Assembly (NCBI RefSeq): GCF_000314995.1
Contig: NZ_BAEO01000060.1
Location: forward strand, 1-64,000
From: Paraglaciecola arctica BSs20135
Lineage (GTDB): Bacteria; Pseudomonadota; Gammaproteobacteria; Enterobacterales; Alteromonadaceae
Length of the DNA stretch: 64,000 nt
Direction: 5' to 3'
The notes beneath the pieces are model-generated. The model was not told the DNA's origin. It did not search any database and was given only the letters and a program-made list of their open reading frames with translations. Shown one piece after another: positions 20,406 to 37,247 of this stretch; the first letter of the stretch is position 1, and the number at the start of each line of letters is the position of its first letter. Both the position numbers and the translations under genes were made by a program.

Positions 20406-20419
20406 TTGATCCACATCAA
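20406..20419 (+). promoter_or_regulatory. FNR/DNR-type binding site before nirK
   Basis: TTGAT-CCAC-ATCAA is a perfect match to the FNR/DNR/NnrR half-sites, ending 67 bp before ATG 20487. It lies just after the nitroreductase stop, giving nirK its own anaerobic or nitric-oxide-responsive promoter. Confidence 0.85.
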
Positions 20420-20486
20420 TTCGCCGCAAACAGATCTCTTGATACTAACAATAGGAAGTTCCCTAAAAACAATAAAAGGTTACCCT

Positions 20487-21887: not shown

Positions 21888-21888
21888 T

Positions 21889-22653
21889 ATGATATTGACA
21901 TCCCTTATATTAGCGGGAGCATTAAACATGGTGGCTATCCCAGATGGGGATTACCGCCCTCTTTACATGAGTAAAGACAGTCCACAAACACAAGTGCGGG
22001 CTTTTACCATAGATGTAAGGCCTGTCACTAACCAGCAGTATTTGTTGTTTATCGATGCTAACCCGCGTTGGCAACCGTTGACCATAGCGCAAATATTCGC
22101 CGAGCCTCAATATCTGCAACATTGGAAGCATGAGGGTAAAAATATACTACCCACTGACGAGCAACTTAACAGCCCTGTTATCAATGTTTCATGGTTTGCA
22201 GCCCAAGCTTATTGCCGTTCACTGGACAAACGTTTGCCCACAGTTGCTGAGTGGGAACGGGTTGCTAGCGCCAGTGAAACACATGCCGATGGTAGTCAGG
22301 AAAAAGGCTATCATCAGCGTATTTTAGAATGGTATAGCCAACCTAGTCGCAAGCAATTAGCTGACGTTGGTGGTAATGCGCCTAACTTTTGGGGCGTACA
22401 AGACCTACATGGACTGATATGGGAATGGACTGAAGATTTTAATTCAGCTTTAGTCAGTGGAGAATCACGGGGCGATAGCAATATAGATCAAAGACTTTTT
22501 TGTGCTGCGGGATCTCAAGGTGCAGCCGACCCAAGCGACTACGCCGCGTTTATGCGTTTTGGTTTTCGCTCCAGTTTACAGGCAAAATTCACCCTACCAA
22601 ACCTAGGGTTTCGTTGTGCATCTTCACAGGAACAAACAAATGATAAAATTTAA
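21889..22653 (+). CDS. nirV: NirV-like formylglycine-generating-enzyme-family protein
   Basis: A 254-residue protein with an FGE-sulfatase (SUMF1) fold: FTIDVRPVTNQQYLLFI, SPVINVSWFAAQAYCRSLDKRLPT, LHGLIWEWTEDFN and a terminal GFRCA. Such proteins next to nirK are called NirV; their exact role in nitrite reductase maturation is unresolved. It starts one base after the nirK stop, and its end overlaps the SCO gene by 14 bp, so the three form an operon. The frame is open back into nirK (21787), but that start would duplicate nirK coding sequence. A role in maturing the distant sulfatase is conceivable but unsupported. Confidence 0.82.
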   Translation: MILTSLILAGALNMVAIPDGDYRPLYMSKDSPQTQVRAFTIDVRPVTNQQYLLFIDANPRWQPLTIAQIFAEPQYLQHWKHEGKNILPTDEQLNSPVINVSWFAAQAYCRSLDKRLPTVAEWERVASASETHADGSQEKGYHQRILEWYSQPSRKQLADVGGNAPNFWGVQDLHGLIWEWTEDFNSALVSGESRGDSNIDQRLFCAAGSQGAADPSDYAAFMRFGFRSSLQAKFTLPNLGFRCASSQEQTNDKI

Positions 22654-23212
22654 TCCAGTTATTCTAGGCAAATTAATAGGACTGGCATTGTTGCTAGTTG
22701 TTTCACAGGTAAACGCACAAACCGTGCCTCAGGATTCGATTTATCAACTTAACGGCATTTGGTTAGATCAAGACGGTAACGAGCGTTCACTCAGTAGTTT
22801 TAGCGGTAAAAAGCAGGTGCTAAGTATGATTTATACTCACTGCTTACATACCTGCCCAACTATTGTTTCTACCATGCAATCCATCGAAAATAAGCTTAGC
22901 GATGATGAAAAACAAAACGTTGGATTTATTCTGGTTTCATTAACCCCTGACACTGATACCCCTGAGGTTATGCGGGACTTTGCGCAAAAAAGAAAACTCA
23001 ATTTGGAAAATTGGAGTTTATTAACTGGCAGCGCCGAAGATGTGCGCAGCTTAGCCATGGCATTAGACGTCAAATATCAAAATGTTAAAGACAATGAGGT
23101 CAATCACTCCAACCTAATTACTGGGCTTGATAGTCAAGGTAGGATTAAATTTCAAGAAATAGGTGTGATGGATAATGCAGTAATGGCTGTGGAGAAACTT
23201 AAAACATTCTAA
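22640..23212 (+). CDS. SCO1/SenC family copper chaperone
   Basis: A 190-residue exported thioredoxin-fold protein. A signal peptide (IGLALLLVVSQVNAQ) precedes the copper-binding CxxxC motif in THCLHTCPT and the distal His in NHSNLITG. SCO proteins deliver copper to oxidases, or here plausibly to the NirK centres, given the operon position directly after nirV with a 14-bp overlap. CAGGA upstream of ATG 22640 supports this start. Confidence 0.9.
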   Translation: MIKFNPVILGKLIGLALLLVVSQVNAQTVPQDSIYQLNGIWLDQDGNERSLSSFSGKKQVLSMIYTHCLHTCPTIVSTMQSIENKLSDDEKQNVGFILVSLTPDTDTPEVMRDFAQKRKLNLENWSLLTGSAEDVRSLAMALDVKYQNVKDNEVNHSNLITGLDSQGRIKFQEIGVMDNAVMAVEKLKTF

Positions 23213-23301: not shown

Positions 23302-24675
23302 TTAGTGGTTATGTTCTTCTTCAGCAACACCTAGCCAGGTAATGGCTTCAGGCGCAAAATCCAGTTCTATGTCACCTTCAATTTCCTTATCTTCCAAATG
23401 AATCTGCAGGACATGCTGAGCAATGGGATCCGCCACATACACATAATGGCCGTTTTGCGCCACAGTCATGCTGAATGACATGCCTTCAGGCATAGTTGCT
23501 ACATCTTCTTCAGTAATATCTAACTGACTTTCTAATTCCCAATGCATATGACCATCGTGTTCATGGGCACTAAGAATATTCAGGTAACCTGCGTCATCCA
23601 AAACCAGAAAATGTGCCCCATCATGCGAAAATGCGTAAGCAACCGGGCTGGCATCTGGTTGCCATTCCAGCGCTTCCATTTCATTTTCCTCAGGATTAAC
23701 ACTCAGCAAAATGGCTGGTCCACCACCGTGTCCTGAAGCTATACTGATAAAAGATTCACTCTCTTTATGGGCGTATAGTGTGCCGATGCGCAGCCCATCT
23801 AGGATGTCAATATTGGCAATTTTTTCTGCTTCGTATTCTTCGTCGTGTTGATTAGCAACTAACACGCCATCGCTACAGCCAAATACCACATATTCACTAT
23901 TTTGCGCAGCACCATGTAAATCTGGACAATTGATTTCTAATACCTGTTCCAGTTCATATTCATCATCATGTAGGTGATACACACCCACTTGATCAGGTAG
24001 TATTTTAGCTGTCGACGTGCTCTCGGCATCATCGCGGCGCACTGTAGACAACAAATACTCACCACGAGGTTTAGCGACGCCATGCATGTTCATGGTGTAG
24101 TCCAGAGTAGGCAGAACACTGGTTTGATTGCTAATGTCGGTATCTGAGAGAACCTGTACTGAAGCAGGGATCCCAGATTCGGCATCACCATCATAAAAAA
24201 TGGCCATCTGACCATCATGCTTGATGACGTGGGTTGGACGACTTGCGGCCAACTCATAGTCGCTCATCACTGGGGCTTGTTTATAATCATGTAGATGTTC
24301 ACCGTGATCTTCTCGCCAAAAGCCTCCATCAATAAAACCCACATAATCCTGAGCGCGACTGGAAATCACTGCAAAACGATAATCTGCTGATACGCTTAAA
24401 GCATTGGATTCATGTACCAAAGCAAAGGTATCTAGCGCGTCATTATCGTCTAAATCAAATACAGTCAAGTCGGCACTTTCAGCCGATAGTACTGCTAAGC
24501 GCCCCATAGACTCGATAGTATAACTGTCATATACATGGTCGTGATCATCATGATCGTCATCTGTTTCCTCAATAGGATCTTTTTCAATTATGGTTGTTTC
24601 TGCATCGCCACATGCAGTTAACATTAACGCACTGATCGTGACCGCCAGCAGGTTAAGTGGAAATGGTTTGAGCAT
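23302..24675 (-). CDS. AztD-like zinc-binding beta-propeller lipoprotein
   Basis: A 457-residue lipoprotein. The lipobox LTAC (Cys22) is followed by a linker rich in Asp and His (DDDHDDHDH), then a repetitive all-beta region readable as propeller blades. GFIDGGFWREDHGEHLHDY is reminiscent of the periplasmic zinc metallochaperone AztD. AztD normally serves the AztABC importer, which is absent here; instead the gene lies 35 bp downstream of the ZnuD-like receptor and should be co-transcribed from the Zur-box promoter. AAGGA precedes ATG 24675. It probably receives zinc from the receptor or buffers it. The family call is moderately sure; zinc binding follows from His content and context. Confidence 0.7.
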   Translation of the reverse strand: MLKPFPLNLLAVTISALMLTACGDAETTIIEKDPIEETDDDHDDHDHVYDSYTIESMGRLAVLSAESADLTVFDLDDNDALDTFALVHESNALSVSADYRFAVISSRAQDYVGFIDGGFWREDHGEHLHDYKQAPVMSDYELAASRPTHVIKHDGQMAIFYDGDAESGIPASVQVLSDTDISNQTSVLPTLDYTMNMHGVAKPRGEYLLSTVRRDDAESTSTAKILPDQVGVYHLHDDEYELEQVLEINCPDLHGAAQNSEYVVFGCSDGVLVANQHDEEYEAEKIANIDILDGLRIGTLYAHKESESFISIASGHGGGPAILLSVNPEENEMEALEWQPDASPVAYAFSHDGAHFLVLDDAGYLNILSAHEHDGHMHWELESQLDITEEDVATMPEGMSFSMTVAQNGHYVYVADPIAQHVLQIHLEDKEIEGDIELDFAPEAITWLGVAEEEHNH

Positions 24676-24710
24676 AGTATTTTCCTTATTATGTAAATGT
24701 AATTCTCAGA

Positions 24711-27149
24711 TTAGAAGTAGCCACGAATGCCCAAAGCAAAGCTGCGGCCCGGGCGTGGAGCAATATCTTTAATAAACGAGCTATGCACTCTTGCCTCGGT
24801 ATCCGTTAGGTTGCTGCCTTTGAGATAGATAGCCATATCCTGATTAAAGAGCGGTAGGTCGTAGGAAATACTGGCATCAACCAGCGTATATCCATTTGTT
24901 TGGGTTTCTTGGGCAGCAACACGGTCTTGCTTCTGATAGCGGGTAATATCCAGATGCGCACTTAATCGCTCGTTTTCATAGCTAAACTGGGTGCCAAAAC
25001 GCATGGGGGGGGTGCGAGGTAAATCACCACCGTCTTTTAAACGGGCTCTGACATAATCGGAAAACACTGCGGCTTTAAATTCATCGCTAGCCTGCCAAGC
25101 AAGCTGTGCCTCAAAACCATGGAGGATCACATCATCGGTTTTGAAAATGTATACAGGTAGTTCATCGGTATGTTCATCACTTTCTTCTTCATGATCATGT
25201 ACATCTTCTTCACCATGGTCATGACCACTTTCGGCAAATAGACCTGTATCAGTTTGATAGTAGTAATTGTCCACTTGGTTATAGAAGGTATTAAAAACAA
25301 AGCCGAGATCACCTTGTGTTTTCCGCAAAGTCAGGTCGATATTATTGGCGGTTTCAATATCAGTGTTTTCGTCGGTTAAATCAATATGGGTATCACCGTC
25401 ATCCTCATGCAAAGCGAACAAGGCGCCTACCTCATAAGAACTGGTACCAATATGCGGACCAAACGACATTAACTCAGATGCCGAAGGCGCACGCTCTGAG
25501 CGTGAGATTGAAATTCCTAGATTATAACCTGGGGTGAAATCCCAAACTAAACCTGCTGATAAGCTGACTGGAGTGAATTGATGTTTAACAGCAAATACAC
25601 GGGTGGTACTGGTTTCCACTTCATCTTCTTCATGATCATGCTCATGCTCATGCTCTTCTTCATCATGGTCGTGAGCTTCCAAAGTTGGCAGTAGCAGGTT
25701 GTTTGCCTCTAGGGTCACGCGCTCAATGCGGGCACCTAGCTGAAACAGTACCTCGCCAAAGTGCTTTTCTTCCATCATAGCCAATGCAATAGTTTGGGTT
25801 TCTGATGGGGGAGTAAAGGCTTCTTCTCCCTGGGCCGCCACTTCACTGCGTTTATAATGCAAGCTGAGGCCACCATTCCACTCTGAAAAAGGGTTATGAT
25901 GAATATCTACTTTGAGTTCTTGAGTTTCGTTTTCGAATAAAGTACCTGTTTCACCATTTTCAATTTCGGCATGTTCATATTCGGTAAAGCCACCTCGAAA
26001 ATTGACTTTATTAACCACCTTCCCGGCAAAATTATACTCACCCAATAATTGTACTCGGGTTTGTTCTAAGTCGGCGAAGACACTTTCTTCTTCTTCTTCG
26101 TCGTGATCGTGATCTTCTTCCTCTTCTGAGTGACTATGGCCAGGAATGCCGTATTCGCGGTTAAATTGCTCTACCGCAACACCAAAATAGCCTTCATCAA
26201 ATAAGTAACTTGCACCTAAAGTAATGCCATCGGATTTTTCACTGCTGTTTTCAACGACAAAATCATGGGCTCCATTTTCTTCATCGTGACCTAGCTCTGG
26301 TGCGATAGGCACCTCATAATCACTGGATTCTCGATAATAACCATCAGCATAAAAGGCAAACGAGTCCATACCTGTTGTTAAATTAAAGGAACCCAATTTT
26401 TGTTCATCAGCAGAGTTGCCTTCCAGTAACCATTCGCCTTGTGTAGTGTTATCGGTAGGCACACGCCCATCAACCACATTAACTACACCACCTATTGCGC
26501 CGCTACCATAAAAGAGTGTTGCTGGGCCACGTAACACTTCTATTTGTTGTGCCGTTGACGCTTCGGATGCAACTGAATGGTCTGGACCAACTCTAGACAC
26601 ATCGCTCACATCAAGCCCATTTTGTGCAATCAATACACGAGGGCCACTTAAGCCACGAATAATAGGGGTACTGGCCACATTGCCATGGAAGTTGGTATTC
26701 ACCCCTGGCAATTTTTCCAGACTATCACCCAATGTAGACGCTTGTTGGCGACGCAATGCTTCACCGGCCAAAACGCTTACCGGTGATGCAGACTCCATAA
26801 TTGACATATGTATAGGTGTGCCAACGATATCGACTACTTCAATGGGTGAGCGACTGAGAGACAAGGTTAAGGTTTTAACTTTGTCATCGGCCAACATTAT
26901 GTCTTGATGCAGGTGGGCATAATTTGCCGCAGAGATATGGATTTCATTTATGCCAGTACTTAATTTGTTGAAAATAAAGCGCCCTTTACTGTCTGTGATG
27001 GTTTGAGTATTTTCCCCATCCACTCGAACCGTCGCACCAGCAATCGCTTTACCATCACTATTTATTACTACCCCTTCTATTGATTGTGCCATGGCAACAA
27101 CAGGTAGCAGTGTACTTATAACAGCCGCAATCCGTGATATTTTGTACAT
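24711..27149 (-). CDS. ZnuD-like TonB-dependent zinc receptor with His-rich loops
   Basis: An 812-residue outer-membrane receptor. A signal peptide is followed by a carboxypeptidase-regulatory-like domain (about 23-100), the plug (LEKLPGVNTNFHGN, FYGSGAIGGVVNVVDGR) and a beta-barrel ending GIRGYF. At least three predicted loops are packed with His, Asp and Glu (near residues 345, 495 and 655), a hallmark of zinc-capturing ZnuD-type receptors. It is divergent from the ZrgA-zur operon, with two Zur-like boxes between, and is followed by the AztD-like gene. CTGGAG precedes ATG 27149. Uptake of zinc (or a zinc complex) is strongly suggested; other divalent metals are possible. Confidence 0.9.
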   Translation of the reverse strand: MYKISRIAAVISTLLPVVAMAQSIEGVVINSDGKAIAGATVRVDGENTQTITDSKGRFIFNKLSTGINEIHISAANYAHLHQDIMLADDKVKTLTLSLSRSPIEVVDIVGTPIHMSIMESASPVSVLAGEALRRQQASTLGDSLEKLPGVNTNFHGNVASTPIIRGLSGPRVLIAQNGLDVSDVSRVGPDHSVASEASTAQQIEVLRGPATLFYGSGAIGGVVNVVDGRVPTDNTTQGEWLLEGNSADEQKLGSFNLTTGMDSFAFYADGYYRESSDYEVPIAPELGHDEENGAHDFVVENSSEKSDGITLGASYLFDEGYFGVAVEQFNREYGIPGHSHSEEEEDHDHDEEEEESVFADLEQTRVQLLGEYNFAGKVVNKVNFRGGFTEYEHAEIENGETGTLFENETQELKVDIHHNPFSEWNGGLSLHYKRSEVAAQGEEAFTPPSETQTIALAMMEEKHFGEVLFQLGARIERVTLEANNLLLPTLEAHDHDEEEHEHEHDHEEDEVETSTTRVFAVKHQFTPVSLSAGLVWDFTPGYNLGISISRSERAPSASELMSFGPHIGTSSYEVGALFALHEDDGDTHIDLTDENTDIETANNIDLTLRKTQGDLGFVFNTFYNQVDNYYYQTDTGLFAESGHDHGEEDVHDHEEESDEHTDELPVYIFKTDDVILHGFEAQLAWQASDEFKAAVFSDYVRARLKDGGDLPRTPPMRFGTQFSYENERLSAHLDITRYQKQDRVAAQETQTNGYTLVDASISYDLPLFNQDMAIYLKGSNLTDTEARVHSSFIKDIAPRPGRSFALGIRGYF

Positions 27150-27163
27150 TTAAACTCCAGTGT

Positions 27164-27182
27164 AATGTTATACTATATCATT
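27164..27182. promoter_or_regulatory. Zur box 1
   Basis: AATGTTATA-C-TATATCATT is a 19-bp palindrome with one mismatched pair that matches the gammaproteobacterial Zur consensus (core TGTTATAnTATAACA). It starts 14 bp upstream of the receptor ATG, so bound Zur would block that promoter or its early transcript. Confidence 0.8.
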
Positions 27183-27192
27183 AGTTTGATGT

Positions 27193-27211
27193 TATGTTAT
27201 ATTGTATCAAA
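27193..27211. promoter_or_regulatory. Zur box 2 (weaker)
   Basis: TATGTTATA-T-TGTATCAAA keeps six of nine pairs of the Zur palindrome and lies 10 bp beyond box 1 toward the ZrgA-zur operon. Paired sites of unequal strength would let Zur control both divergent promoters. Confidence 0.55.
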
Positions 27212-27359
27212 ATGAAAATCAAACAGGTCTTCAATACCATATATGTTTCATATGATTATTTTTTTGCGTGGACTGCTGAAACGGTTATTTTCATCAGTCT
27301 GCGATGTATCGTTTTTAGTAGAGAGTCAATCTAGTAGCGGGGGAAACTTAGTTTTGTTT

Positions 27360-27881
27360 ATGAATAAGGTATGGGTTCGGCTGTCTCTTATATTCCTGTT
27401 CAGTATGGGATTTTCAGCCAACGCCCAGCAGCATACACATGGTCAAGGTCAGCTTTTGATATCCCAGGATGGAACAGAGTGGCATATGCAATTGATTTTA
27501 CCGGCCGCTGATAGCTTAGGGTTCGAGCATGTTCCAGAGACTCAAGCACAGAAAAATAAGATTGAGTCACTTGCTAAGAAATTACAAGAAAACGCAGCTG
27601 TTATTGAAGTTGATGGTCGGTGTGCCCTAATAAAAGCCGCACATTCCTTGGTAAACCAACATGGGGATGAGCTCCATAAAAATCATGAACATGATAACGA
27701 GCAAGATCACCATGATATAGAAGTTGAATATCAATTCAGCTGTAAAGATGCGATTACTCAGGTATATGTGAAAATCTTTGAAACTATGCCATCACTTAAT
27801 GCCATAGAGCTGCAGTGGCTGCTGGAAAATAGTCAGGGAATGCTGACTCTTACCCGCAGCCATCCCTATATAGAGTGGTAA
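27360..27881 (+). CDS. ZrgA/DUF2796-family periplasmic zinc-uptake protein
   Basis: A 173-residue exported protein. The signal peptide ends near FSANAQ, and the mature N-terminus begins QQHTHGQGQLLI, the typical His-Gly start of the DUF2796/ZrgA family. LPAADSLGFEH is the conserved family segment. A charged linker near residues 104-121 contains many His (HKNHEHDNEQDHHD). ZrgA-type proteins take part in high-affinity zinc uptake in Vibrio. The open frame extends to 27243, but ATG 27360 gives the signal peptide. It is first in an operon with zur, and the Zur boxes lie 150-200 bp upstream. Confidence 0.85.
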   Translation: MNKVWVRLSLIFLFSMGFSANAQQHTHGQGQLLISQDGTEWHMQLILPAADSLGFEHVPETQAQKNKIESLAKKLQENAAVIEVDGRCALIKAAHSLVNQHGDELHKNHEHDNEQDHHDIEVEYQFSCKDAITQVYVKIFETMPSLNAIELQWLLENSQGMLTLTRSHPYIEW

Positions 27882-27883
27882 TT

Positions 27884-28396
27884 ATGAATACTATGGACGC
27901 TAGGGATTTTATCCAGATTGCCAAGAATATTTGTGAAAAGACGGGGTCTAGACTCACGGAAACACGTCAACATATGTTGGAAGTGTTATTCACAGTAGAA
28001 ACACCAAAATCAGCCTATGAGCTAACAGATGATTATAACCGGCTAGTTAACTCACCCATTATGGCGATGTCGGTTTACCGGATCCTAAATTTTTTGGCAT
28101 CTATTAGACTAGTTCATCACCTTCATTCAATAAATAAATACATTATTTGTAAACATCCCATTGGGAGAAGTGAAGACCAAGTACCGCTGTTTCTGATTTG
28201 TACTTCGTGCCAACAGATAGAAGAAGTTGCCATAGCGGCAGATCTTATTTATGCATTATCAGACCATGCTGAAAGCCGCGGATTTATCAGTGCGGGTTCA
28301 CAAATTGAGCTCAATAGCTTATGCAAAAAATGCCAATCAAATATTCATCAACACTCACCAGGAGACTTTAATGGTCAAAATCCAACAAATAAGTGA
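27884..28396 (+). CDS. zur: Zinc uptake regulator Zur (Fur family)
   Basis: A 170-residue Fur-family repressor that binds DNA when zinc is sufficient. The winged-helix region (about 10-80) includes SVYRILNFL. The structural zinc site is formed by C106xxC109 (CTSC) and C147xxC150 (CKKC). Typical Fur iron-site His clusters are sparse, and the zinc-related operon and boxes point to Zur. ATG 27884 starts two bases after the upstream stop; a GTG at 27875 or ATG at 27893 are alternatives. It overlaps the MerC-like gene by 26 bp. The boxes upstream of its operon imply autoregulation. Confidence 0.88.
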   Translation: MNTMDARDFIQIAKNICEKTGSRLTETRQHMLEVLFTVETPKSAYELTDDYNRLVNSPIMAMSVYRILNFLASIRLVHHLHSINKYIICKHPIGRSEDQVPLFLICTSCQQIEEVAIAADLIYALSDHAESRGFISAGSQIELNSLCKKCQSNIHQHSPGDFNGQNPTNK

Positions 28397-28775
28397 CAAA
28401 GCAGCAGTGGGGTTATCACTATTATGTGTGGTTCACTGTCTTTTTTTACCTATTCTTCTAATTCTAATCCCGTCATTATCCGGTGTATTTGCCTTTAACG
28501 ATGAGCTATTCCATACATGGTTGCTATACGCAGTTGTCCCAATTAGTTCGATTGCCATGCTAATGGGATATCTACATCACCGCAGTCATCGGGTTTTTTT
28601 AATTGGCGCCTTGGGGTTAATAATGCTTATTTTGACTGCTTTCTGGGGGCATGAACTTTTTGGTGAATTCGGTGAAGTGGCTTTTACTGTATTGGGTTCA
28701 AGCATCATTGCCTACAGCCATATTCGTAACTATCAACTGCGCTCACAAAACAAGCGTCCAGAACCTCATCATTAG
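28371..28775 (+). CDS. MerC-domain membrane protein
   Basis: A 134-residue protein with four predicted membrane helices and a metal-binding CVVHC motif in the first helix, as in MerC-type transporters. Classical MerC moves mercury, but zur-linked MerC-domain proteins are common in marine gammaproteobacteria, and the context argues for zinc or another divalent metal. ATG 28371 is preceded by CCAGGAGA and overlaps zur by 26 bp; longer in-frame starts inside zur lack ribosome sites. Substrate and direction of transport are inferred only. Confidence 0.82.
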   Translation: MVKIQQISDKAAVGLSLLCVVHCLFLPILLILIPSLSGVFAFNDELFHTWLLYAVVPISSIAMLMGYLHHRSHRVFLIGALGLIMLILTAFWGHELFGEFGEVAFTVLGSSIIAYSHIRNYQLRSQNKRPEPHH

Positions 28776-28787
28776 GAGTCAAAAAAT

Positions 28788-29993
28788 ATGCAACAACCTA
28801 AACTGCCGGTCACTGTCCTATCAGGATTTCTCGGTGCGGGAAAAACAACGGTACTTAGCCATATATTGAACAACCGTCAAGGCAAAAAGGTTGCCGTCAT
28901 TGTGAATGATATGAGTGAGATCAACGTAGATGCATCAATCCTAAAAAATGAAGTCACTTTAAATCAAAGTGAAGAGAAGTTAGTTGAAATGAGCAATGGC
29001 TGTATTTGTTGCACGTTACGGGAAGATTTATTGTTAGAGGTGGGCAAGTTGGCAGCAACGGGAAAGTTTGACTATTTGGTTATCGAATCGACAGGTATAT
29101 CGGAACCTCTTCCGGTAGCTGAAACCTTTACTTTTGCGGATGAAAACGGTATCTCGTTATCCGACGTTGCAGATCTGGATACCATGGTCACAGTGGTCGA
29201 TGCCCTTAATTTTCTCAACGATTATGATGAAGCAAAGTACTTACAAGAAACAGCTGAACATCTTGGTGAAGAAGACGAGCGCAGTGTCACAGACTTACTG
29301 GTAGATCAGGTCGAATTTGCCGATGTTATTTTAGTTAGTAAAACCGATCTGGTGGGAATTACAGAGCTTAATCGATTAATCAGCATCTTAAAAAATCTGA
29401 ATTCGCAGGCGCGTATTATTCCAATAAGTCATGGACAAATTAATGTGGAAGAGGTGCTTGGTACTGGGCTTTTTGATTTTGACAAAGCGCAACAAGCCCC
29501 CGGATGGTTGCAAGAATTACGTGGTGAGCATACACCTGAGACCGAAGAGTATGGCATTGCGAGTTTCAGCTATTTAGCCCGTCGGCCTTTCCATCCTGAA
29601 AAATTTCATGAGTTTCTGCACGGCACAGATAAATTCGGTAAGTTAATTCGTTCTAAAGGGTATTTTTGGTTAGCTTCGCGCCCAGAGTTTGCTGGTCAAT
29701 GGAATCAGGCTGGTGGTATTGCCCACTATGGGTTTGGCGGTATGTTCTGGAAAGCAGTGCCCAAATCTGAATGGCCTAGCGACGCAGATTCTTTGGCATC
29801 CATAGAAAAACTATGGGAAGAACCTTTTGGTGATATGCGACAAGAATTGGTGTTTATCGGACAAAATTTAGATCAGGAGGCTGTTACTGATGCATTGAAT
29901 CATTGCCTGTTGTCAGATGAGGAGCTTTTGCAAGGAAAATGCCACTGGAAAACCTTAGCCGATCCTTTTCCTGAATGGGAGAGCGAAGCATGA
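28788..29993 (+). CDS. zigA: COG0523-family zinc metallochaperone GTPase (ZigA-type)
   Basis: A 401-residue G3E GTPase. Walker A GFLGAGKT is at 13-20, the metal-binding CxCC motif C72-I-C74-C75 follows, then the switch/Walker B ESTGISEP and the base-recognition SKTD. The long C-terminal CobW domain (about 255-401) matches the ZigA/YciC subgroup induced by zinc starvation, thought to direct zinc to essential client proteins. It is 12 bp after the MerC gene, and its TGA overlaps the DUF1826 ATG (ATGA). Confidence 0.9.
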
Positions 29994-30664
29994 ACAATAC
30001 ATCAGTCTTGACGGAAATAGCGCAACCTCCAGAAAAAGTAAGGAGGTCCTCGGAGTCACACAGTCCCGCTGTTTTGACCGATATTTATGCCCAAGACATC
30101 AACATGTGCATCTGGAAACGGGAGTTGTCAGCAGAGCTGCTCACAGATATTGAACAATATCTGCAGGGCAAACCAAACTTGAGTATCACCAAAATCATTA
30201 AGTCTGATGCAATTAATCAGGAGCTGAATGAAATTCTGAAGGATTTTCCAAACCTTGCTGCCCTGCGGGACAACATCGCCGAATTAATCGACATGTTTTC
30301 TTGTCTTTTTGACCTGAAACAAGTCGGTTTTCGCCTTAACGTTCTCGAACATGCTATGTGTCCGCGTTTTCATGTAGACAAAATTCCCTGCCGTTTAATT
30401 ACCACATACAGTGGCAACGGCACACAATGGCTTTCCCATGACCGAGTCAACCGCGACAAACTGGGATTTAAAAGTCAGGGGCTTGGTGATGAACAGTCTG
30501 GATTCTATTTGAACGCCGATGATATTCAAATTGTGACGACGGGACATGTCGCCTTACTTAAAGGGGAGTTATGGCAAGGCAACGAAGAGGCAGGGTTAGT
30601 GCATCGTTCCCCTCCTGCAAGCTCTGATGAAAAACGGCTAGTGATGACATTGGACTTTGTTTAG
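29990..30664 (+). CDS. DUF1826 family protein
   Basis: A 224-residue cytosolic protein of the DUF1826 family, which often occurs beside COG0523 GTPases in Zur regulons. Visible features are a conserved block with Cys and His ([17 protein letters not shown]) and [20 protein letters not shown] near the end, reminiscent of His-dependent metal sites. ATG 29990 overlaps the zigA stop by four bases, so translation is coupled. A GTG/ATG at 29975 inside zigA is open but unneeded. The function is unknown; a client or partner of ZigA is plausible. Confidence 0.82.
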
Positions 30665-30674
30665 TAAGTGATAC

Positions 30675-30842
30675 ATGAGCACTCAGTTAAGTAAAAATGC
30701 CTTGTTGACCAATAATAATTTCATTGTGGCTGGACTCCTGTTGCAGGTACTCAAGTTTCAGCAAAAACATGACGAAACTGGGTTAACGGTTAGGAGGGGA
30801 CGGGCAAAACTAGCAAATATTATCGAACTAAATCGGCTGTAA
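30675..30842 (+). CDS. Possible 55-residue protein
   Basis: Ten bases after the DUF1826 stop, an ATG opens a 55-codon frame that starts [20 protein letters not shown] and ends in a basic region ([18 protein letters not shown]). It sits between operon members in the same direction. Its ribosome site is weak, and I recognise no family. It could be a genuine small operon gene or a remnant. Confidence 0.35.
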
Positions 30843-30888
30843 TACCTGGTCATTACTCACAAATAACATTCAAGGAATTGGACTATCC

Positions 30889-31074
30889 ATGACTAAAAAT
30901 AATCAAATGCCTGCTTCTGAGTCAGAAATCAACCAAGCATCCTGCTGCAGTCGCTCTAGTTGCTGCGCCCCTCCAAATCCTGTTGTTCGCGTCGAGCCCA
31001 AAGTGGGTCGTAACGACCCTTGCCCTTGCGGCAATGGTCGCAAGTTTAAAAAGTGTTGCGGCAAAAATAGATAA
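30889..31074 (+). CDS. Cys-rich SEC-C zinc-ribbon mini-protein
   Basis: A 61-residue protein. The C-terminus is a SEC-C motif ([20 protein letters not shown]), the zinc-binding tail also found at the end of SecA. The N-terminal half carries two further Cys clusters ([10 protein letters not shown]). Eight Cys in 61 residues, within a zinc-starvation operon, suggest a zinc-binding, storage or sensing role. CAAGGAA precedes ATG 30889. Free-standing SEC-C proteins are known; their role here is inference. Confidence 0.8.
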
Positions 31075-31347
31075 ACTCTGAATTGGCATCTTAAGGGCAA
31101 GGATAGCCTATTCAACCAACCGCTATCTGAGTACTGTCATTGTTGCAGCTTTGTGAGTAAATTAATAAATATTTCAAAAACCTAAAAAGGGATAGGTTGA
31201 ATGTTAAATTGAGTTTATATCTTATTAAGAAATTATACTCATCATTCTAAAATACCTAATAGGGAAACATGCTTTGCAGTGGGCCTTGTAGCGTTATGCA
31301 ATAGTCAGTTATACCTCTTACATATAACGAAAATATAACGAGCGAAA

Positions 31348-32358
31348 ATGAACACTGAACACTTAGCTATTCGATCTGTTCCCACCAACATCATTAGCGG
31401 ATTTTTAGGTGTGGGGAAAACGTCTGCAATTTTGCAGCTACTCAAACATAAACCAAAGGGGGAGCGCTGGGCAGTGCTGATCAATGAATTTGGTGAGATT
31501 GGTGTGGATGGAAGTTTGCTTGAAGGCCAATACACGCATGCTGAGGGTATTTTCATTCGTGAAGTGCCGGGTGGCTGTATGTGTTGCGCCGCGGGTCTGC
31601 CTATGCATATTGCATTAAACCAATTGTTGGCCAAAGCCAAGCCCGATCGCTTACTCATCGAACCCACAGGTCTCGGGCATCCCAAAGAAGTGTTACAGAC
31701 ACTCTCAGCAGAACATTATCAGGATGTATTATCATTGCATAAAACACTTACTCTGGTAGATGCAAGAAAACTCTCTGACCAGAGATATACTAGTCACGAT
31801 ACATTTAATCAGCAGATCGCCATTGCAGATGTTGTTATTGGTAATAAATTGGATCTCTATAAAGAGGAGGAACAGTCAAGGTTAATCGCTTATGTCAAAC
31901 AGCACGGGCAAACTCACGCTGAGGTAATATTTACTCAATATGGGGAGATCCCATTATCAGCATTGCAAGGTTTAACCACAACCACCCCTATACCAATACA
32001 TCATCACCATCACAAAACTCAAACAAAACCACTGGTTTCAGAGCTAGCGATACCAGCATGCGGTTTTGTAAAAGCGATGAACGAGGGAGAGGGGTTTAGT
32101 AGTATTGGTTGGCGATTTTCACCCAAAAAAGTTTTCAATCATAAATTGCTGTTTTCATTTTTAGCAGGTCTACGGGTTGAACGAATGAAGGCCGTCTTCA
32201 TTACGGATGCAGGTGTGGTTGGCTATAACCTGACTGGTGATGCGCTAACTGAGATCCCGCTAGATGATTGCCTAGAAAGTAAAATAGAAATTATATCGAA
32301 TGGGATAGATGACACATGGGAGTTGGCATTAATGCAATGTTTGCAAAATCCAGAGTAG
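31348..32358 (+). CDS. Second COG0523-family GTPase (CobW/P47K-like)
   Basis: A 336-residue G3E GTPase from a different subgroup than zigA. It has Walker A GFLGVGKT (18-25), INEFGE, metal motif C77-M-C79-C80, IEPTGLGHP and GNKLDL. A run of five His near residue 218 probably adds metal binding. The C-terminal domain is shorter than in ZigA. It stands 273 bp after the SEC-C gene, so it may have its own promoter: ATATAACGA is repeated at 31322-31338, just before the start, a possible degenerate Zur half-site pair. Two distinct COG0523 proteins in one island suggest different client proteins. Confidence 0.85.
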   Translation: MNTEHLAIRSVPTNIISGFLGVGKTSAILQLLKHKPKGERWAVLINEFGEIGVDGSLLEGQYTHAEGIFIREVPGGCMCCAAGLPMHIALNQLLAKAKPDRLLIEPTGLGHPKEVLQTLSAEHYQDVLSLHKTLTLVDARKLSDQRYTSHDTFNQQIAIADVVIGNKLDLYKEEEQSRLIAYVKQHGQTHAEVIFTQYGEIPLSALQGLTTTTPIPIHHHHHKTQTKPLVSELAIPACGFVKAMNEGEGFSSIGWRFSPKKVFNHKLLFSFLAGLRVERMKAVFITDAGVVGYNLTGDALTEIPLDDCLESKIEIISNGIDDTWELALMQCLQNPE

Positions 32359-32462
32359 CTTCTTATTTAAAAAAATACGCCTAAGCCTAATAGTTATTGC
32401 ACACTTTATACATCAAAACGACCGATAATCCTAAGTATTGAATTCCTCCCGAAACGGGCACG

Positions 32463-33161
32463 TCAGTGTTGGCGTAAGTCGTCAGGTTGCCCTTGATAGG
32501 GTTTGATATTAACTAAATTTAATCGATAGGCCGAGGTTCCTAACGGATCCTCGAATAGACCCTGACTCAAAATACCTGACAAGGTAAAGGCCTTATGTAA
32601 TTCAATGTTTTTAAATCCATCTATGAGCTGCACAAAAATCATCTGATTAGGCGGTGGTGGCGGATAATGAATACAGGCACCGAAATAAGGCACCAGAAAA
32701 AAGCTTTTAATACTCCTGTCGGCACTGACGTCAATGGGCAGGATAAATCCAGAAATAGACACCGCTTGCTCAAGTGTTTCATTGACTGTATTCGTTGAAT
32801 ACAAGGCTGAATTATAAGCTGGATCACTGCTTGCTTGCAGTGACAGAGCTAACTGCTTACTAAAGTCGTTTTCAGTTGTTTGATAATGAGCGAGTACCTC
32901 CTTTTCTGCCACGGGGATTAGCGCCTCCCATCCCAAGAGCGATATTTGCTGAGTGTTAAACGCTTTTAGCAATGCTTGGTCGGGCGTGGCGTACCACACT
33001 TTTTCGGCATTCCAAAAGGCGCTTATCGCTGGGCTGACTTTCTGAAAAAACATAGTCAATAGTATGCCAGCTACAAAGAACAAACCTAGAAAAGCCACAA
33101 ACTTTAATCTGTTATTGAGCATTGGTTTTGACAACTTCTCATGGCAAGGCGCTGCAAACAT
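32463..33161 (-). CDS. DUF3299 family membrane-anchored protein (paralogue 1)
   Basis: A 232-residue protein with one N-terminal membrane helix (FVAFLGLFFVAGILLTMFF, about 22-40) and a periplasmic DUF3299 domain at the C-terminus. Family signatures are SGFILPID, FFLVPYFGACIHYPPPPPNQ and, near the end, AYRLNLVNI. ATG 33122 (residue 14) is an alternative start that places the helix closer to the N-terminus; neither has a strong ribosome site. It follows the other DUF3299 gene by 28 bp. In Pseudomonas a DUF3299 protein accompanies a Zur-controlled MacB-like ABC transporter, the same association as here. The function is unknown. Confidence 0.82.
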   Translation of the reverse strand: MFAAPCHEKLSKPMLNNRLKFVAFLGLFFVAGILLTMFFQKVSPAISAFWNAEKVWYATPDQALLKAFNTQQISLLGWEALIPVAEKEVLAHYQTTENDFSKQLALSLQASSDPAYNSALYSTNTVNETLEQAVSISGFILPIDVSADRSIKSFFLVPYFGACIHYPPPPPNQMIFVQLIDGFKNIELHKAFTLSGILSQGLFEDPLGTSAYRLNLVNIKPYQGQPDDLRQH

Positions 33162-33189
33162 AGGGAATAAAGAGTTTACAAAATTTCAT

Positions 33190-33771
33190 TCATTCGGGAT
33201 AAGGAATAACATTATCGAGCCGCATTCGGTAAGCGGATGCACCCAAATCATTCTGTATAATCTCAGTGGATAACACGCCTTCAAACCAAAAAGCATCATA
33301 TAAATTATCCAGTGCAAAACCTTTTTCTAGCTCTGCATAAATAATTTGGTTGGGAGGAGGTGGAGGCATATGCAGACAGGCTCCAAAATAAGGCACAATA
33401 AAAAATTCAGTGACCAATTGCGCTTCATTTGTTTGCAGGGGTACGATAAACCCCGGCAAGCGGATCGCCATATTATCATAAGTATCAATGACTTGTGTTG
33501 AGCGTAAGGCTTGCTGAAAACGTTGGGTTTTCAGATCATCTGGCGATATTTCACCAAAAGTTTCCATAGAGTCCTGTTCAGAGCCATCTTGAATATCTAA
33601 CAAAAAATCCGGTGGATCCATCAGTGCATCAAGGTCGTCCTGTGGCATGAGTGCGATCCATTCTAGTGTCTCGTATTTTTGTACTTGTTGCGGCCCCGCC
33701 ACAGAAAATCCTGGCAAGACACTCAATATTAAAGCCATAAACCCCATTGTGATGTGCTGAAAACTGAGCAT
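33190..33771 (-). CDS. DUF3299 family exported protein (paralogue 2)
   Basis: A 193-residue exported protein. A signal peptide ends near FSVAGPQ and the DUF3299 domain follows: IRLPGFIVPL, EFFIVPYFGACLHMPPPPPN and AYRMRLDNVIPY. It shares the FIxPxxxx...VPYFGAC core with the downstream paralogue, so the two arose by duplication. It is the first gene of a leftward pair reading from the Zur-like palindrome at 33812-33827, opposite the ABC transporter genes. It may be the periplasmic partner of that transporter. Confidence 0.85.
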   Translation of the reverse strand: MLSFQHITMGFMALILSVLPGFSVAGPQQVQKYETLEWIALMPQDDLDALMDPPDFLLDIQDGSEQDSMETFGEISPDDLKTQRFQQALRSTQVIDTYDNMAIRLPGFIVPLQTNEAQLVTEFFIVPYFGACLHMPPPPPNQIIYAELEKGFALDNLYDAFWFEGVLSTEIIQNDLGASAYRMRLDNVIPYPE

Positions 33772-33811
33772 GTTACCTCTGTAAAAAGAATAGATTAGCT
33801 AAGTGTGATTA

Positions 33812-33827
33812 ATATGTTATAACATAT
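33812..33827. promoter_or_regulatory. Zur-type palindrome in divergent promoter
   Basis: ATATGTTATAACATAT is a perfect 16-bp palindrome carrying the GTTATAAC core of many Zur boxes. It lies 41 bp from the DUF3299 start on one side and 56 bp from the ABC ATPase start on the other, so one Zur dimer could repress both operons. Confidence 0.75.
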
Positions 33828-33882
33828 CATCTATGGGGTGTATATCCACAACAAATAACAAGAGTACGGCTCGGGAATTAAA

Positions 33883-34599
33883 TTGATATCAAGTGCTTTA
33901 AAAATTAAAGAGTCTCTGGCGATTGACGTTAAAGGTGTATACCACCGCTACTCAAAGACTAAATATGCCGTAGGAATATTCATTCCCCGATGGACCCTAA
34001 AGCGTGGAGAACGAGTCTTTTTGCATGGCGCATCCGGCTCTGGTAAAACCACCTTGCTGAATCTTCTTGCGGGCGTGCTAAGTCCGACTCAGGGTGGAAT
34101 ACAACTGCTAGAACAAGAATTTTCTAGTCTTTATTCCCGTCGCAAAGATAAGTTTCGGGCACAACATATAGGCGTGGTATTTCAGCAATTTAATTTAATA
34201 TCGTACTTAAGTGTGCTCAAAAACATTCAGCTTGCAGCCTATTTTGGTGGTAATGCAAAAAGTAAGGTTGAACAGAAAGCCAGTGAAATGCTAAGGAAAC
34301 TCAAGCTCGACCCAGATGTGTTGCAACGACCCGCAGGCTCTTTAAGTGTCGGACAACAGCAACGTGTTGCCATTGCTCGGGCTCTCATTAATGCGCCTGA
34401 AATATTGCTAGTGGATGAGCCGACTTCTGCGTTAGATGCCGCTGCTCGGGATGCTTTTATGGAAATCTTGATTGAGATCTGCCAACTCACTACCACTACT
34501 CTGGTTTTTGTCAGCCACGACATGTATTTACGGCGTTTTTTTGACGCGAGTGTTGAAATATCATCACTGCTAAAACCAGTGGAGACTGTAGAATGTTAG
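33883..34599 (+). CDS. ABC transporter ATP-binding protein (LolD/MacB type)
   Basis: A 238-residue ATPase with Walker A GASGSGKTT (about 49-57), a Q-loop (VVFQQFN), signature LSVGQQQRV, Walker B ILLVDEPTSALD and the H-loop SHD. It follows the LolD/MacB export group. The start is TTG 33883; GTG/ATG alternatives are not close. It overlaps the permease gene by seven bases. With the permease and the DUF3299 proteins it resembles the zinc-regulated PA4063-PA4066-type system of Pseudomonas. MacB-like transporters transmit force across the membrane and need not import metal; the cargo is unknown. Confidence 0.9.
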   Translation: MISSALKIKESLAIDVKGVYHRYSKTKYAVGIFIPRWTLKRGERVFLHGASGSGKTTLLNLLAGVLSPTQGGIQLLEQEFSSLYSRRKDKFRAQHIGVVFQQFNLISYLSVLKNIQLAAYFGGNAKSKVEQKASEMLRKLKLDPDVLQRPAGSLSVGQQQRVAIARALINAPEILLVDEPTSALDAAARDAFMEILIEICQLTTTTLVFVSHDMYLRRFFDASVEISSLLKPVETVEC

Positions 34600-35831
34600 T
34601 ATCTGTTGCGTGGAGTAGTTTAAGAAGCCGCCGTAAATCGGTTATTTTGACGTTTTTTTCCTTGTTGATTAGCATCAGCGTATTACTCAGTGTTGAACAT
34701 ATTCGTCAAAATGCCAAAGAAAGTTTCAATAGAACAATATCCGCTGTGGATATTATTGTAGGCGCACCTAGTGGCCAGTTAAATTTGTTGTTGTACTCAG
34801 TATTCAGAATGGGAAACCCCACCAATAATATAGCTTATGAGAGTTTTGAAACCCTGAGTAAAAACCAACACGTCGCTTGGACTATTCCAATTTTATTAGG
34901 TGACTCTCATCGTGGATCCCGAGTGATGGGGACCAATGAAAATTATTTTGCACATTTCAAATATGCTAACAAGCAAGCACTTGAGTTTGCTGCCGGCGTG
35001 CCATTTTCCAAGCTATTTCAGGCTGTTATAGGTGCAGATGTTGCGAAACAATTAAAATACCAAGTCGGTGATGAAATAGTCATAGCCCATGGTATAGGGA
35101 ATGTTAGTTTTGCCAAGCATGACAATACACCTTTTGTCATAAGCGGCATTCTCAAAGCAACCGGTACACCAGTTGATAAAACAATTCACGTAAGCTTAAA
35201 CGCGATAGAAGCCATTCATTTGTCGCCATCTCAACAAAAGAAACTGCTAAGTGACCCCACCTCAGTTAACTTAACCCCCGAAAGTATGACAGCGGTAATG
35301 TTAGGTTTGAAGTCACTAATGGCTACTTTCAAACTGCAACGGGAAATCAACAATTACCAAAAAGATCAGTTAATGGCTATTCTGCCTGGTGTGGCGATGA
35401 CTGAGTTATGGCAAATGATGGCGACAGTTGAAAACCTGTTACTGGTGATCAGCATCTTGGTGTTAATTTCTTCACTTTTTGGCTTGTCTACTATGTTGCT
35501 GGCATCCATGCAGCAACGGAAAAATGAAATTGCAGTGTTGCGAGTGTTAGGTGCAAGCCCAAGCGTTATTTTTGCATTGGTACTGATAGAAGCTCTGCTC
35601 TTAATTGTTCTAGTCATAGTGGCTGCAATAGGGCTTATCAGTTTAACCTTAACCTTGTCGAGTGATTGGTTGGCATCCGAATATGGCTTGTTTTTGAGTG
35701 GCAACCTATTGTCAATAGACTCTCTCAAGGTAGTCGCTGTTATTGTGGTTACCTCTATTATAACCTCGCTGCTTCCCGCTATTGAAGCCTATAAAAATGC
35801 CTTAAATGTGGGGTTGTCATCAAGGTGTTAA
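34593..35831 (+). CDS. FtsX/MacB-type ABC transporter permease
   Basis: A 412-residue permease with the MacB topology: one membrane helix near 18-38, a large periplasmic domain (about 45-270), then three helices near 275-300, 325-355 and 370-400. The periplasmic part starts with SAVDIIVGAPSGQLNLLLYS, typical of this permease group. It overlaps the ATPase gene and shares its Zur-type promoter. It lacks a LolE-like lipoprotein hook that I can recognise. The likely role is a periplasmic lipoprotein or peptide function under zinc limitation. Confidence 0.87.
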   Translation: MLVSVAWSSLRSRRKSVILTFFSLLISISVLLSVEHIRQNAKESFNRTISAVDIIVGAPSGQLNLLLYSVFRMGNPTNNIAYESFETLSKNQHVAWTIPILLGDSHRGSRVMGTNENYFAHFKYANKQALEFAAGVPFSKLFQAVIGADVAKQLKYQVGDEIVIAHGIGNVSFAKHDNTPFVISGILKATGTPVDKTIHVSLNAIEAIHLSPSQQKKLLSDPTSVNLTPESMTAVMLGLKSLMATFKLQREINNYQKDQLMAILPGVAMTELWQMMATVENLLLVISILVLISSLFGLSTMLLASMQQRKNEIAVLRVLGASPSVIFALVLIEALLLIVLVIVAAIGLISLTLTLSSDWLASEYGLFLSGNLLSIDSLKVVAVIVVTSIITSLLPAIEAYKNALNVGLSSRC

Positions 35832-35894
35832 TTATCATCATTAATATTGGTGTTATGTCTGTGTATAACTGTAAACATTAGAAAAAGGACAATT

Positions 35895-37247
35895 ATGATT
35901 ACTCGTCGGAAGTTTAATTTAGGAGTGGTTTCCCTGGCTTTTTCAGGACTTGCAAAAAGCGCATTGGGCAACAATCTCAACGTGGAAAAAGCAACTTTGG
36001 GCTATGGACCTTTGATTGTCGACGATAAAGGTTTATTGGATCTACCTGCAGGTTTTAGCTATAGGATTATTTCGACCTTAGGAGAAAAAATGTCGGATGG
36101 TTTGGACGTGCCAGATAGGGCTGACGGCATGGGTTGCCTGCCGCTAGATGGGGAGCGCGTGGCATTGATCCGTAATCATGAATTACACCCTGACCATATC
36201 GCTAAGTTACCACAATCCCTGCAAAACCATAAAAGTAACTTTTCCTATGATACTTATTCTAATGGGGTCGCTTTACCTGGGGGGACTAGCACTATTGTTT
36301 ACAATCTAGGTACTGGCAAAAAAGAACAGGAATTTCTCAGCCTGATTGGCACAATTCGTAATTGTGCTGGTGGTGTCACGCCTTGGGGGACTTGGCTAAG
36401 CTGTGAAGAATCGGTCGATATACCTAATGGCACTATTAGTCAGGAACACGGATATATTTTTGAAGTACCGGCAACGGCCAAAGGACCGGTTGAACCCATC
36501 CCACTTAAAAAAATGGGCCGCTTCAACCATGAAGCAGCTGCTGTGGATCCAGCCTCTGGTATTGTTTATTTAACTGAGGATCGCGGTGACAGCCTTTTTT
36601 ATCGTTTTATTCCAAATGCTTATGGAGATCTCGCCAAAGGGGGGAAATTACAAGCTCTGGTAATAAAAAGCAAAGCTCAATACGATACACGCAACTGGAC
36701 CGGCATCACCATGAATAAGGGCCAATGGTTAGATATCGAGTGGATTACCCTCACTAACCCTGAAAGTCCAGAAGATGATTTGCGTTTGCAAGGTTATTCA
36801 AAAGGGGCTGCGTTGTTTGCCCGTGGTGAAGGGATCCATTGGGGAGAAAAGGAATTGTATTTTTGTTGTACTAATGGTGGCTTAGAGCAATTAGGACAAA
36901 TCATGCAATATGTTCCTTCACCCTATGAAGGAACAGATAAAGAGGATCTTCAGCCAGGAAAAATACAATTATTTGTAGAGAGTGAAGATAAGTCTTTATA
37001 TAACTTTGGAGACAATTTGACCGTGATGCCAAATGGACATTTATTAGTCTGCGAAGACCAATACACAGAGGTAGTAGACAATCATCTTCGTGGCGTGAGC
37101 GAAAACGGCGAATTATATGCCTTTGCCAAATTGCGTGAACAAACCGAACTTGCCGGAGCATGTTTTTCTCCTGACACTAAAACCCTATTTGTTAATGTCT
37201 ATTCCCCAACCAAAACTCTTGCAATACAAGGCCCTTGGACGTGGTAG
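35895..37247 (+). CDS. PhoX-like DUF839 family exported protein
   Basis: A 450-residue protein of the PhoX/DUF839 family. The N-terminus (MITRRKFNLG) carries a Tat-like twin Arg, a hydrophobic stretch and AxS/ALG cleavage. Family motifs include RNHELHPDH, GGTSTIVYN, CAGGVTPWGTWLSCEE, GRFNHEAAAVDP, YLTEDRGDSLFYRFIP and a late CEDQY. True PhoX is a phosphatase using iron and calcium, not zinc, so placement after the Zur-controlled transporter fits a zinc-sparing phosphatase, but activity is not shown. ATG 35895 has AAAAGGA upstream and lies 63 bp after the permease stop. Confidence 0.82.
   Translation: MITRRKFNLGVVSLAFSGLAKSALGNNLNVEKATLGYGPLIVDDKGLLDLPAGFSYRIISTLGEKMSDGLDVPDRADGMGCLPLDGERVALIRNHELHPDHIAKLPQSLQNHKSNFSYDTYSNGVALPGGTSTIVYNLGTGKKEQEFLSLIGTIRNCAGGVTPWGTWLSCEESVDIPNGTISQEHGYIFEVPATAKGPVEPIPLKKMGRFNHEAAAVDPASGIVYLTEDRGDSLFYRFIPNAYGDLAKGGKLQALVIKSKAQYDTRNWTGITMNKGQWLDIEWITLTNPESPEDDLRLQGYSKGAALFARGEGIHWGEKELYFCCTNGGLEQLGQIMQYVPSPYEGTDKEDLQPGKIQLFVESEDKSLYNFGDNLTVMPNGHLLVCEDQYTEVVDNHLRGVSENGELYAFAKLREQTELAGACFSPDTKTLFVNVYSPTKTLAIQGPWTW

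Follow-up and report, generated by a model that had tools for sequence, protein, structure and literature searches.

Accounts of zinc import in Gram-negative bacteria usually centre on ZnuABC and the ZIP family. Here we examine a locus of Paraglaciecola arctica BSs20135 (family Alteromonadaceae) at positions 23302-37247 of a 64,000-nucleotide stretch of contig NZ_BAEO01000060.1 (assembly GCF_000314995.1); this whole stretch is referred to below as the window. The locus encodes a MerC-family membrane protein among relatives of known zinc proteins. On balance, we think it probable that this is a Zur-type zinc-scavenging locus in which the inner-membrane steps are performed by a ZrgBC-type ATP-binding cassette (ABC) transporter together with MerC, with MerC importing zinc and not conferring mercury resistance.

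Comparison with described zinc and mercury systems

One of the closest described systems is zrgABCDE, which serves Zur-controlled zinc uptake in Vibrio cholerae and V. parahaemolyticus and whose function has been shown genetically. According to the available parts of the two reports (PMC9820375, PMC9817125), zrgA is required for normal growth at low zinc in Vibrio lacking znuA, ZrgB is a predicted four-helix permease whose periplasmic domain resembles that of MacB, ZrgC supplies the ATPase, ZrgE belongs to DUF3299, and deletion of zrgD alone has no effect. The homologues of ZrgA and ZrgE in Pseudomonas aeruginosa are PA4063 and PA4066. The P. arctica locus resembles the Vibrio system in its ZrgA-family protein, MacB-like permease, LolD-like ABC ATPase, DUF3299 proteins and Zur-like boxes, so that the Zrg set is represented within the locus. 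It differs in arrangement: zrgA lies in a separate operon with zur, merC and zigA, and two DUF3299 genes are divergent from zrgCB. Pfam scans of 20 window proteins gave no match to DUF2607 (ZrgD); families were assigned throughout with hidden Markov model (HMM) profiles from Pfam and NCBIfam. The two Vibrio species also carry ZnuABC, whereas none was found in the P. arctica genome.

Only ZrgA was compared directly with a Vibrio sequence, and the remaining Zrg assignments follow family membership and cassette order. The permease shares 46.8% identity over 78% of its length with its counterpart in a Phaeobacter cassette, where the genes run Fur-type regulator, DUF2796, ATPase, permease, DUF3299; the ZrgC-type ATPase gene has its neighbours in the same order there and in a Catenovulum plasmid cluster. 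Because the ABC transporter, the DUF3299 proteins and ZrgA are Zrg parts, a candidate for the inner-membrane step lies inside the locus. A reading made from the sequence alone (the sequence-only reading) had left this step to MerC or to an importer encoded elsewhere; that is not supported, and the idea of a locus devoid of any importer was rejected because of the same parts (ZrgA, the LolD-like ATPase, the FtsX/MacB-type permease and DUF3299).

Three further systems are comparable. AztABCD of Paracoccus shares with the locus an AztD-like periplasmic protein, but AztA, AztB and AztC are found only on the Paracoccus side. Zur regulons containing COG0523 and DUF1826 clusters (Haas et al. 2009; available part of PMC2770081, where a figure legend on Zur-regulated COG0523 clusters names DUF1826) have in common with it Zur boxes, COG0523 GTPases, DUF1826 and an outer-membrane receptor; unlike in those clusters, MerC is a recurrent member here. 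In the main texts of PMC2770081 and the review PMC6103462, the string "MerC" occurs only within the author name Merchant. Lastly, MerC of mer operons is described, second-hand in the available part of PMC9412105, as an energy-dependent importer of Hg(II), and a title cited there reports cadmium transport. Like the MerC of our locus, it belongs to PF03203 and has a CxxHC motif in helix 1. Unlike it, the genes studied here have a Zur box or zinc-gene neighbours, and no other mer gene (regulator, reductase and so on) is present among the 20 window proteins scanned. Zinc import by a Zur-controlled MerC would be a short step from Hg(II) import.

Zur boxes, missing importers and the distribution of MerC

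The P. arctica genome, rated 100% complete in 72 contigs, has no match to ZnuA and none to ZIP, although the same searches were positive in 11 and 8 of 14 control genomes, respectively. Two places score just over the ABC-3 cut-off, and both encode FecCD-family permeases (PF01032, approximately 295 bits each) beside ATPases, with BtuC as the best NCBIfam model, below its cut-off. No ZnuA, ZIP or ZnuB-type permease was thus found in the genome; the search did not extend to NRAMP, P-type ATPases, Pit or CorA. AztA, AztB and AztC were likewise not found. The sequence-only reading had noted the absence of ZnuABC and AztABC genes from the window: this holds, and extends to the whole genome as far as it was searched.

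PF03203, in contrast, matches three places in the genome. One is in the locus (the island-type gene); a second gene stands alone, outside the locus, with a perfect Zur box directly upstream. The box was defined as GTTATANTATAAC and scored by number of mismatches; it is the gamma-proteobacterial Zur box, footprinted by DNase with Yersinia Zur (available part of PMC2706843). There are two perfect occurrences in the 5.96-Mb genome, one being that before the stand-alone MerC gene. The other (G000:C43:16152, or L124:8153) lies approximately 30 base pairs (bp) upstream of a second His-rich ZnuD-like receptor gene and on its other side faces a UPF0149 (YecA-like) gene.

MerC is present in 284 of 295 Alteromonadaceae genomes and scores over the cut-off in none of the 14 control genomes. 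By comparison, ZnuA is found in 38 of the family genomes (37 over the cut-off), ZIP in 138 (110) and ZrgA in 113 (110). Where ZnuA and ZrgA are both absent at the cut-off and no ZIP match of any kind exists (81 genomes), MerC is present in 75, ZrgBC not having been searched genome-wide. Within the family loci described next, MerC genes were located with the stand-alone protein as the only query, so weak island-type copies may be missed; the distant loci described below are not affected.

Two sets of family loci were scored for boxes. The first comprised 100 loci from the best-scoring places listed, not a random draw, and splits into 53 stand-alone loci (including that of P. arctica) and 50 island-type genes in 48 loci. 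A box with no more than one mismatch, sought from 200 bp upstream to 30 bp downstream of the chosen start, was present at 51 of the 53 stand-alone loci, 43 of these boxes being perfect. For other open reading frames of at least 200 amino acids in the same loci, 1 of 374 upstream regions had one. The second set, the best 80 of 114 loci, covers Paraglaciecola, Glaciecola, Alteromonas, Aliiglaciecola, Bowmanella, Lacimicrobium and others, with the closest relatives of the stand-alone protein among these 80 found in Paraglaciecola. All 79 scoreable loci have such a box (71 perfect; L197 has no scoreable motif), compared with 0.16% of 300-bp windows in the same loci. As the sets share 35 loci, 95 of 97 distinct stand-alone MerC loci have a box. 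The proposal that MerC is an inner-membrane candidate gains support from this count.

Island-type genes behave differently from stand-alone ones. At 43 of 48 island-type loci, at least one zinc gene of the window lies within approximately 5 kb, and the other five have a box with at most two mismatches; at the thresholds used, no window zinc gene is near any of the 53 stand-alone genes. These genes thus recur together among relatives, which bears on the neighbourhood conservation that the sequence-only reading had offered as a check, and its term "modular" is apt: both the order and the set of genes differ between genomes.

Beyond the family, the stand-alone MerC model matches 40 of 370 genomes of the class, and ZnuA 244. 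Forty MerC loci were taken from 37 of the genomes that lie outside it. Twelve of them have a box with two mismatches or fewer, and 25, picked by eye, have such a box, a zinc-gene neighbour or both, the neighbours counted being Zur, ZrgA, ZrgB, DUF3299, ZigA, DUF1826, ZnuD and AztD. One such locus, with a perfect box and a Zur neighbour, is in a genome of 1.2 Mb (L143).

In an alignment with 54 stand-alone relatives, the window protein is 23-33% identical to them. Asp9, Cys19, His22, Cys23, His69, Glu102, His117 and Asn120 are invariant throughout, and these Cys, His, Asp, Glu and Asn residues could plausibly form a path for a soft divalent cation. AlphaFold models of both types have four long helices at moderate confidence (predicted local distance difference test scores of 75.5 for the stand-alone and 73.4 for the window protein). 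MerC has no sequence relative of known structure (best E 0.95), and a Foldseek search with the stand-alone model only returned no PDB match with E of 0.001 or less.

Organization of the locus

The features of the locus are as follows.

23302..24675, minus strand: AztD-like lipoprotein (periplasmic zinc chaperone-like); NF038015 E 2.9e-33, 115 bits against a cut-off of 400
24711..27149, minus strand: His-rich ZnuD-like TonB-dependent receptor; NF038289 E 5.8e-102, 342 bits against a cut-off of 950
27167..27179, no strand: Zur-like box 1, one mismatch, znuD-zrgA divergent region; motif scan
27196..27208, no strand: Zur-like box 2, two mismatches, same region; motif scan
27360..27881, plus strand: ZrgA-type periplasmic zinc-binding protein; PF10986 E 1.8e-39, 135.7 bits (over cut-off)
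27884..28396, plus strand: local Zur paralogue; PF01475 29.1 bits (cut-off 23.1), NF008646 66.7 of 167 bits
28371..28775, plus strand: MerC-family membrane protein, island-type, motif CVVHC; PF03203 E 1.2e-29, 103.5 bits (cut-off 27.6)
28788..29993, plus strand: ZigA zinc metallochaperone GTPase (first COG0523 protein); NF038288 681.1 bits, passing the cut-off of 600
29975..30664, plus strand: DUF1826 protein; PF08856 E 7.9e-61
30889..31074, plus strand: SEC-C mini-protein, 61 amino acids, Cys-rich; PF02810 E 2.1e-7
31348..32358, plus strand: second COG0523 GTPase, with a His-rich stretch (HHHHH); PF02492 E 1.7e-45
32463..33161, minus strand: DUF3299 protein a (ZrgE-like); PF11736 E 7.7e-36
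33190..33771, minus strand: DUF3299 protein b (ZrgE-like); PF11736 E 2.1e-42, phmmer match to the solved structure 4hsp at E 7e-32
33816..33828, no strand: Zur-like box 3, two mismatches, between DUF3299 gene b and zrgC; motif scan
33883..34599, plus strand: ZrgC-type ABC ATPase (LolD-like); PF00005 E 1.7e-34, best NCBIfam model LolD at 163 of 308 bits
34593..35831, plus strand: ZrgB-type permease (FtsX/MacB type); PF02687 and PF12704 over cut-off
35847..37247, plus strand: PhoX-like protein (formerly DUF839); PF05787 E 1e-79

Each family named in the sequence-only reading was recovered here by HMM. Start positions were corrected for MerC (28371) and Zur (27884); the zrgA frame is open from 27243, but the signal peptide makes 27360 the more likely start. 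ZigA alone passes the cut-off of its NCBIfam zinc-protein model, with AztD, ZnuD, ZrgA (83 of 185 bits, equivalog model) and Zur below theirs; the AztD-like and ZnuD-like proteins are accordingly relatives only. Some have additional support. The AztD-like protein matches 6ck1 (E 3e-16) and AztD 6cmk (E 8e-12) by phmmer and has a lipobox (LTAC) and a His-rich stretch, the receptor passes the Pfam cut-offs for both TonB barrel and plug, and ZrgA matches 8ezw, a "zinc-binding protein" (E 2e-12), and the PA4063 structure 7ahw (E 1.3e-9). The second COG0523 GTPase matches four NCBIfam models, all below cut-off.

Transcription units diverge from two control regions. From 27150-27359, znuD and aztD are read leftward and zrgA-zur-merC-zigA-DUF1826-(SEC-C)-COG0523 rightward; from 33772-33882, the two DUF3299 genes are read leftward and zrgC-zrgB-phoX-like rightward. 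The Zur-like palindromes attributed to both regions by the earlier reading are indeed there, as three boxes. With up to two mismatches allowed, the 64-kb window contains five motif matches against 4.33 expected by chance, but the two control regions, 321 bp in all, account for three of the five (Poisson P 1.7e-6, with the revised ZrgA start), and box 1 (27167) is among the genome sites with at most one mismatch. Zur control of the locus is predicted from these motifs.

Five places in the genome match the Fur family in a profile search. Since an orphan Zur is encoded on contig C29 (NF008646, 152.6 of 167 bits, also below cut-off), the Zur of the window is a second copy. Aligned to 7dh7 and 4mtd, it keeps both CxxC pairs of site A and, in site B, the equivalents of His77, Cys88 and Glu111 (E. 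coli numbering), while His96 is aligned with Asp. It is possibly a sensor with a different zinc affinity.

The last gene of the locus encodes a protein in which NCAGGVTPWGTWLSCEE aligns to NCANGKTPWGTYLTCEE of PhoX (4amf; PhoX motif NCAxGxTPWGTxLxCEE), and a gene of this kind is present at 6 of 48 island-type MerC loci. The PhoX phosphatase uses calcium and iron and is not known to use zinc; the PhoX-like protein may be a zinc-sparing stand-in for PhoA. No publication joining PhoX with Zur turned up in titles and abstracts of the open-access literature. Beside the locus, at 20406-23212, are genes for a multicopper oxidase/cytochrome c fusion (nitrite-reductase-like), a sulfatase-modifying-factor-like protein and an SCO1-like protein.

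The inner-membrane step and the role of MerC

Taken by its families, the locus supports the earlier proposal of a zinc-starvation system that begins with capture at the outer membrane and ends with allocation in the cytoplasm. Under zinc scarcity, Zur would leave both divergent control regions and the genes would be induced. The His-rich ZnuD-like receptor would bring zinc across the outer membrane, and the AztD-like, ZrgA and DUF3299 proteins would bind it in the periplasm. The inner membrane would be crossed by way of the ZrgBC transporter and the four-helix MerC, our proposed zinc importer. Inside the cell, ZigA and the second COG0523 GTPase, and probably DUF1826 and SEC-C, would allocate the metal. 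The stand-alone MerC behind its perfect box would perform the same function as a conserved core gene of the family. MerC is a strong candidate for the missing zinc importer.

The alternative that survives best, although we regard it as unlikely, is that ZrgBC with ZrgA and DUF3299 performs all inner-membrane zinc import and that MerC is an accessory or buffer, not a transporter. The genetic evidence from Vibrio speaks for it, as does the position of MerC beside ZrgBC at several loci. Two of these lack ZrgA (the relative L064 and a Catenovulum plasmid cluster), so that absence of ZrgA does not mean absence of ZrgBC. ZrgBC is of the MacB/LolCDE type, the familiar members of which are not known to import, and such clusters leave room for a joint machine of MerC and ZrgBC. 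Against MerC as a mere accessory stand the stand-alone genes, none of which has a window zinc gene nearby at the thresholds used, and three genomes of the same genus that lack ZrgA, ZnuA and ZIP and carry MerC with a perfect box (ZrgBC not searched genome-wide).

It is a good deal less probable that high-affinity zinc import actually depends on some unrelated or unrecognised protein encoded elsewhere in the genome. Six nearly complete family genomes (G005, G018, G022, G061, G238, G260) are without ZnuA, ZIP, ZrgA and MerC, with no match to the stand-alone MerC model either, and in these another zinc route must therefore exist; the families left out of our searches (see above) also leave room for an importer of this kind. 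It would, however, leave the conserved Zur box before MerC unexplained. That MerC is a mercury-resistance or low-specificity heavy-metal protein sitting by chance in metal clusters, as the Pfam family name and the reported Hg(II) transport by mer-operon MerC (available part of PMC9412105) might suggest, is very improbable and was rejected as the leading reading, given the Zur boxes before nearly all stand-alone genes examined, the zinc-gene neighbours, the presence of MerC throughout almost the whole family and the lack of other mer genes among the window proteins scanned.

Several observations besides the six genomes and the ZrgA-negative clusters count against zinc import by MerC as we propose it. 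The window boxes are imperfect (one, two and two mismatches), and the counts of boxes and occurrences are not corrected for relatedness. Outside the family, 15 of 40 MerC loci have neither box nor zinc-gene neighbour; seven of these (L133, L140, L145, L149, L154, L159, L165) are in genomes of 1.0 to 1.3 Mb that have kept MerC. In addition, ZnuA failed as a positive control for the motif: no box with at most two mismatches was found in the 350 bp before the matched domain at any of 20 loci. This control covered 20 of the 37 family loci (L248-L267) and, where ZnuA is apparently clustered, no more than about the nearest 130-190 bp upstream of the cluster. At two loci (L249, L250) a two-mismatch box lies further up, about 230-250 bp before the ZnuA-family frame. 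This leaves ZnuD-type genes, MerC genes and the literature as the only checks on the motif.

The ZnuA-family genes themselves are probably not classical Zur-controlled znuA. At most of the 20 loci they form a three-gene cluster (a protein of about 420 amino acids, the binding protein and a permease of about 257 amino acids) with no adjoining Zur box; at L263 Pfam gives no match for the first protein and assigns the last to ABC-3. Two of the binding proteins were scanned and fall below every NCBIfam cut-off, the best models being AztC and an Mn/Fe-type binding protein.

ZnuA and MerC are indeed anticorrelated. Within the family, ZnuA is present in 5 of 11 MerC-negative against 32 of 284 MerC-positive genomes (P 0.006); within the class, in 16 of 40 MerC-positive genomes against 228 of 330 others (P 0.0006), or 16 of 37 with the family left out (P 0.003). 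Stand-alone MerC (at least 140 bits) is present in 18 of 37 ZnuA-positive against 31 of 32 ZnuA-negative genomes picked one per genus (P 8e-6). These statistics ignore kinship, and 16 of the 19 ZnuA-positive genomes without stand-alone MerC belong to one genus. As the ZnuA-family genes have no adjoining boxes at the 20 loci studied, the anticorrelation should not be read as simple replacement, and on both grounds it was set aside as a basis for the argument.

A wider proposal has, in our estimate, an even chance of being correct: that MerC represents a Zur-controlled, ABC-independent class of inner-membrane zinc importer, serving as the conserved zinc entry gate of the Alteromonadaceae in place of a Zur-controlled ZnuABC, and that mer-operon MerC is a recruited relative. 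The parts of the locus are of known kinds, but neither Zur control of a MerC gene nor the near-absence of ZnuA from the family was met in the open-access literature; among titles and the beginnings of abstracts, we found no publication joining MerC with Zur or zinc uptake, a listing in RegPrecise being possible. In this large and mostly marine family, ZnuA is rare and, at the 20 loci studied, without an adjoining Zur box, whereas boxes before MerC are conserved. If MerC imports zinc, this would explain zinc uptake by these bacteria, assign a physiological role to the MerC family and hint at the origin of mercury transporters.

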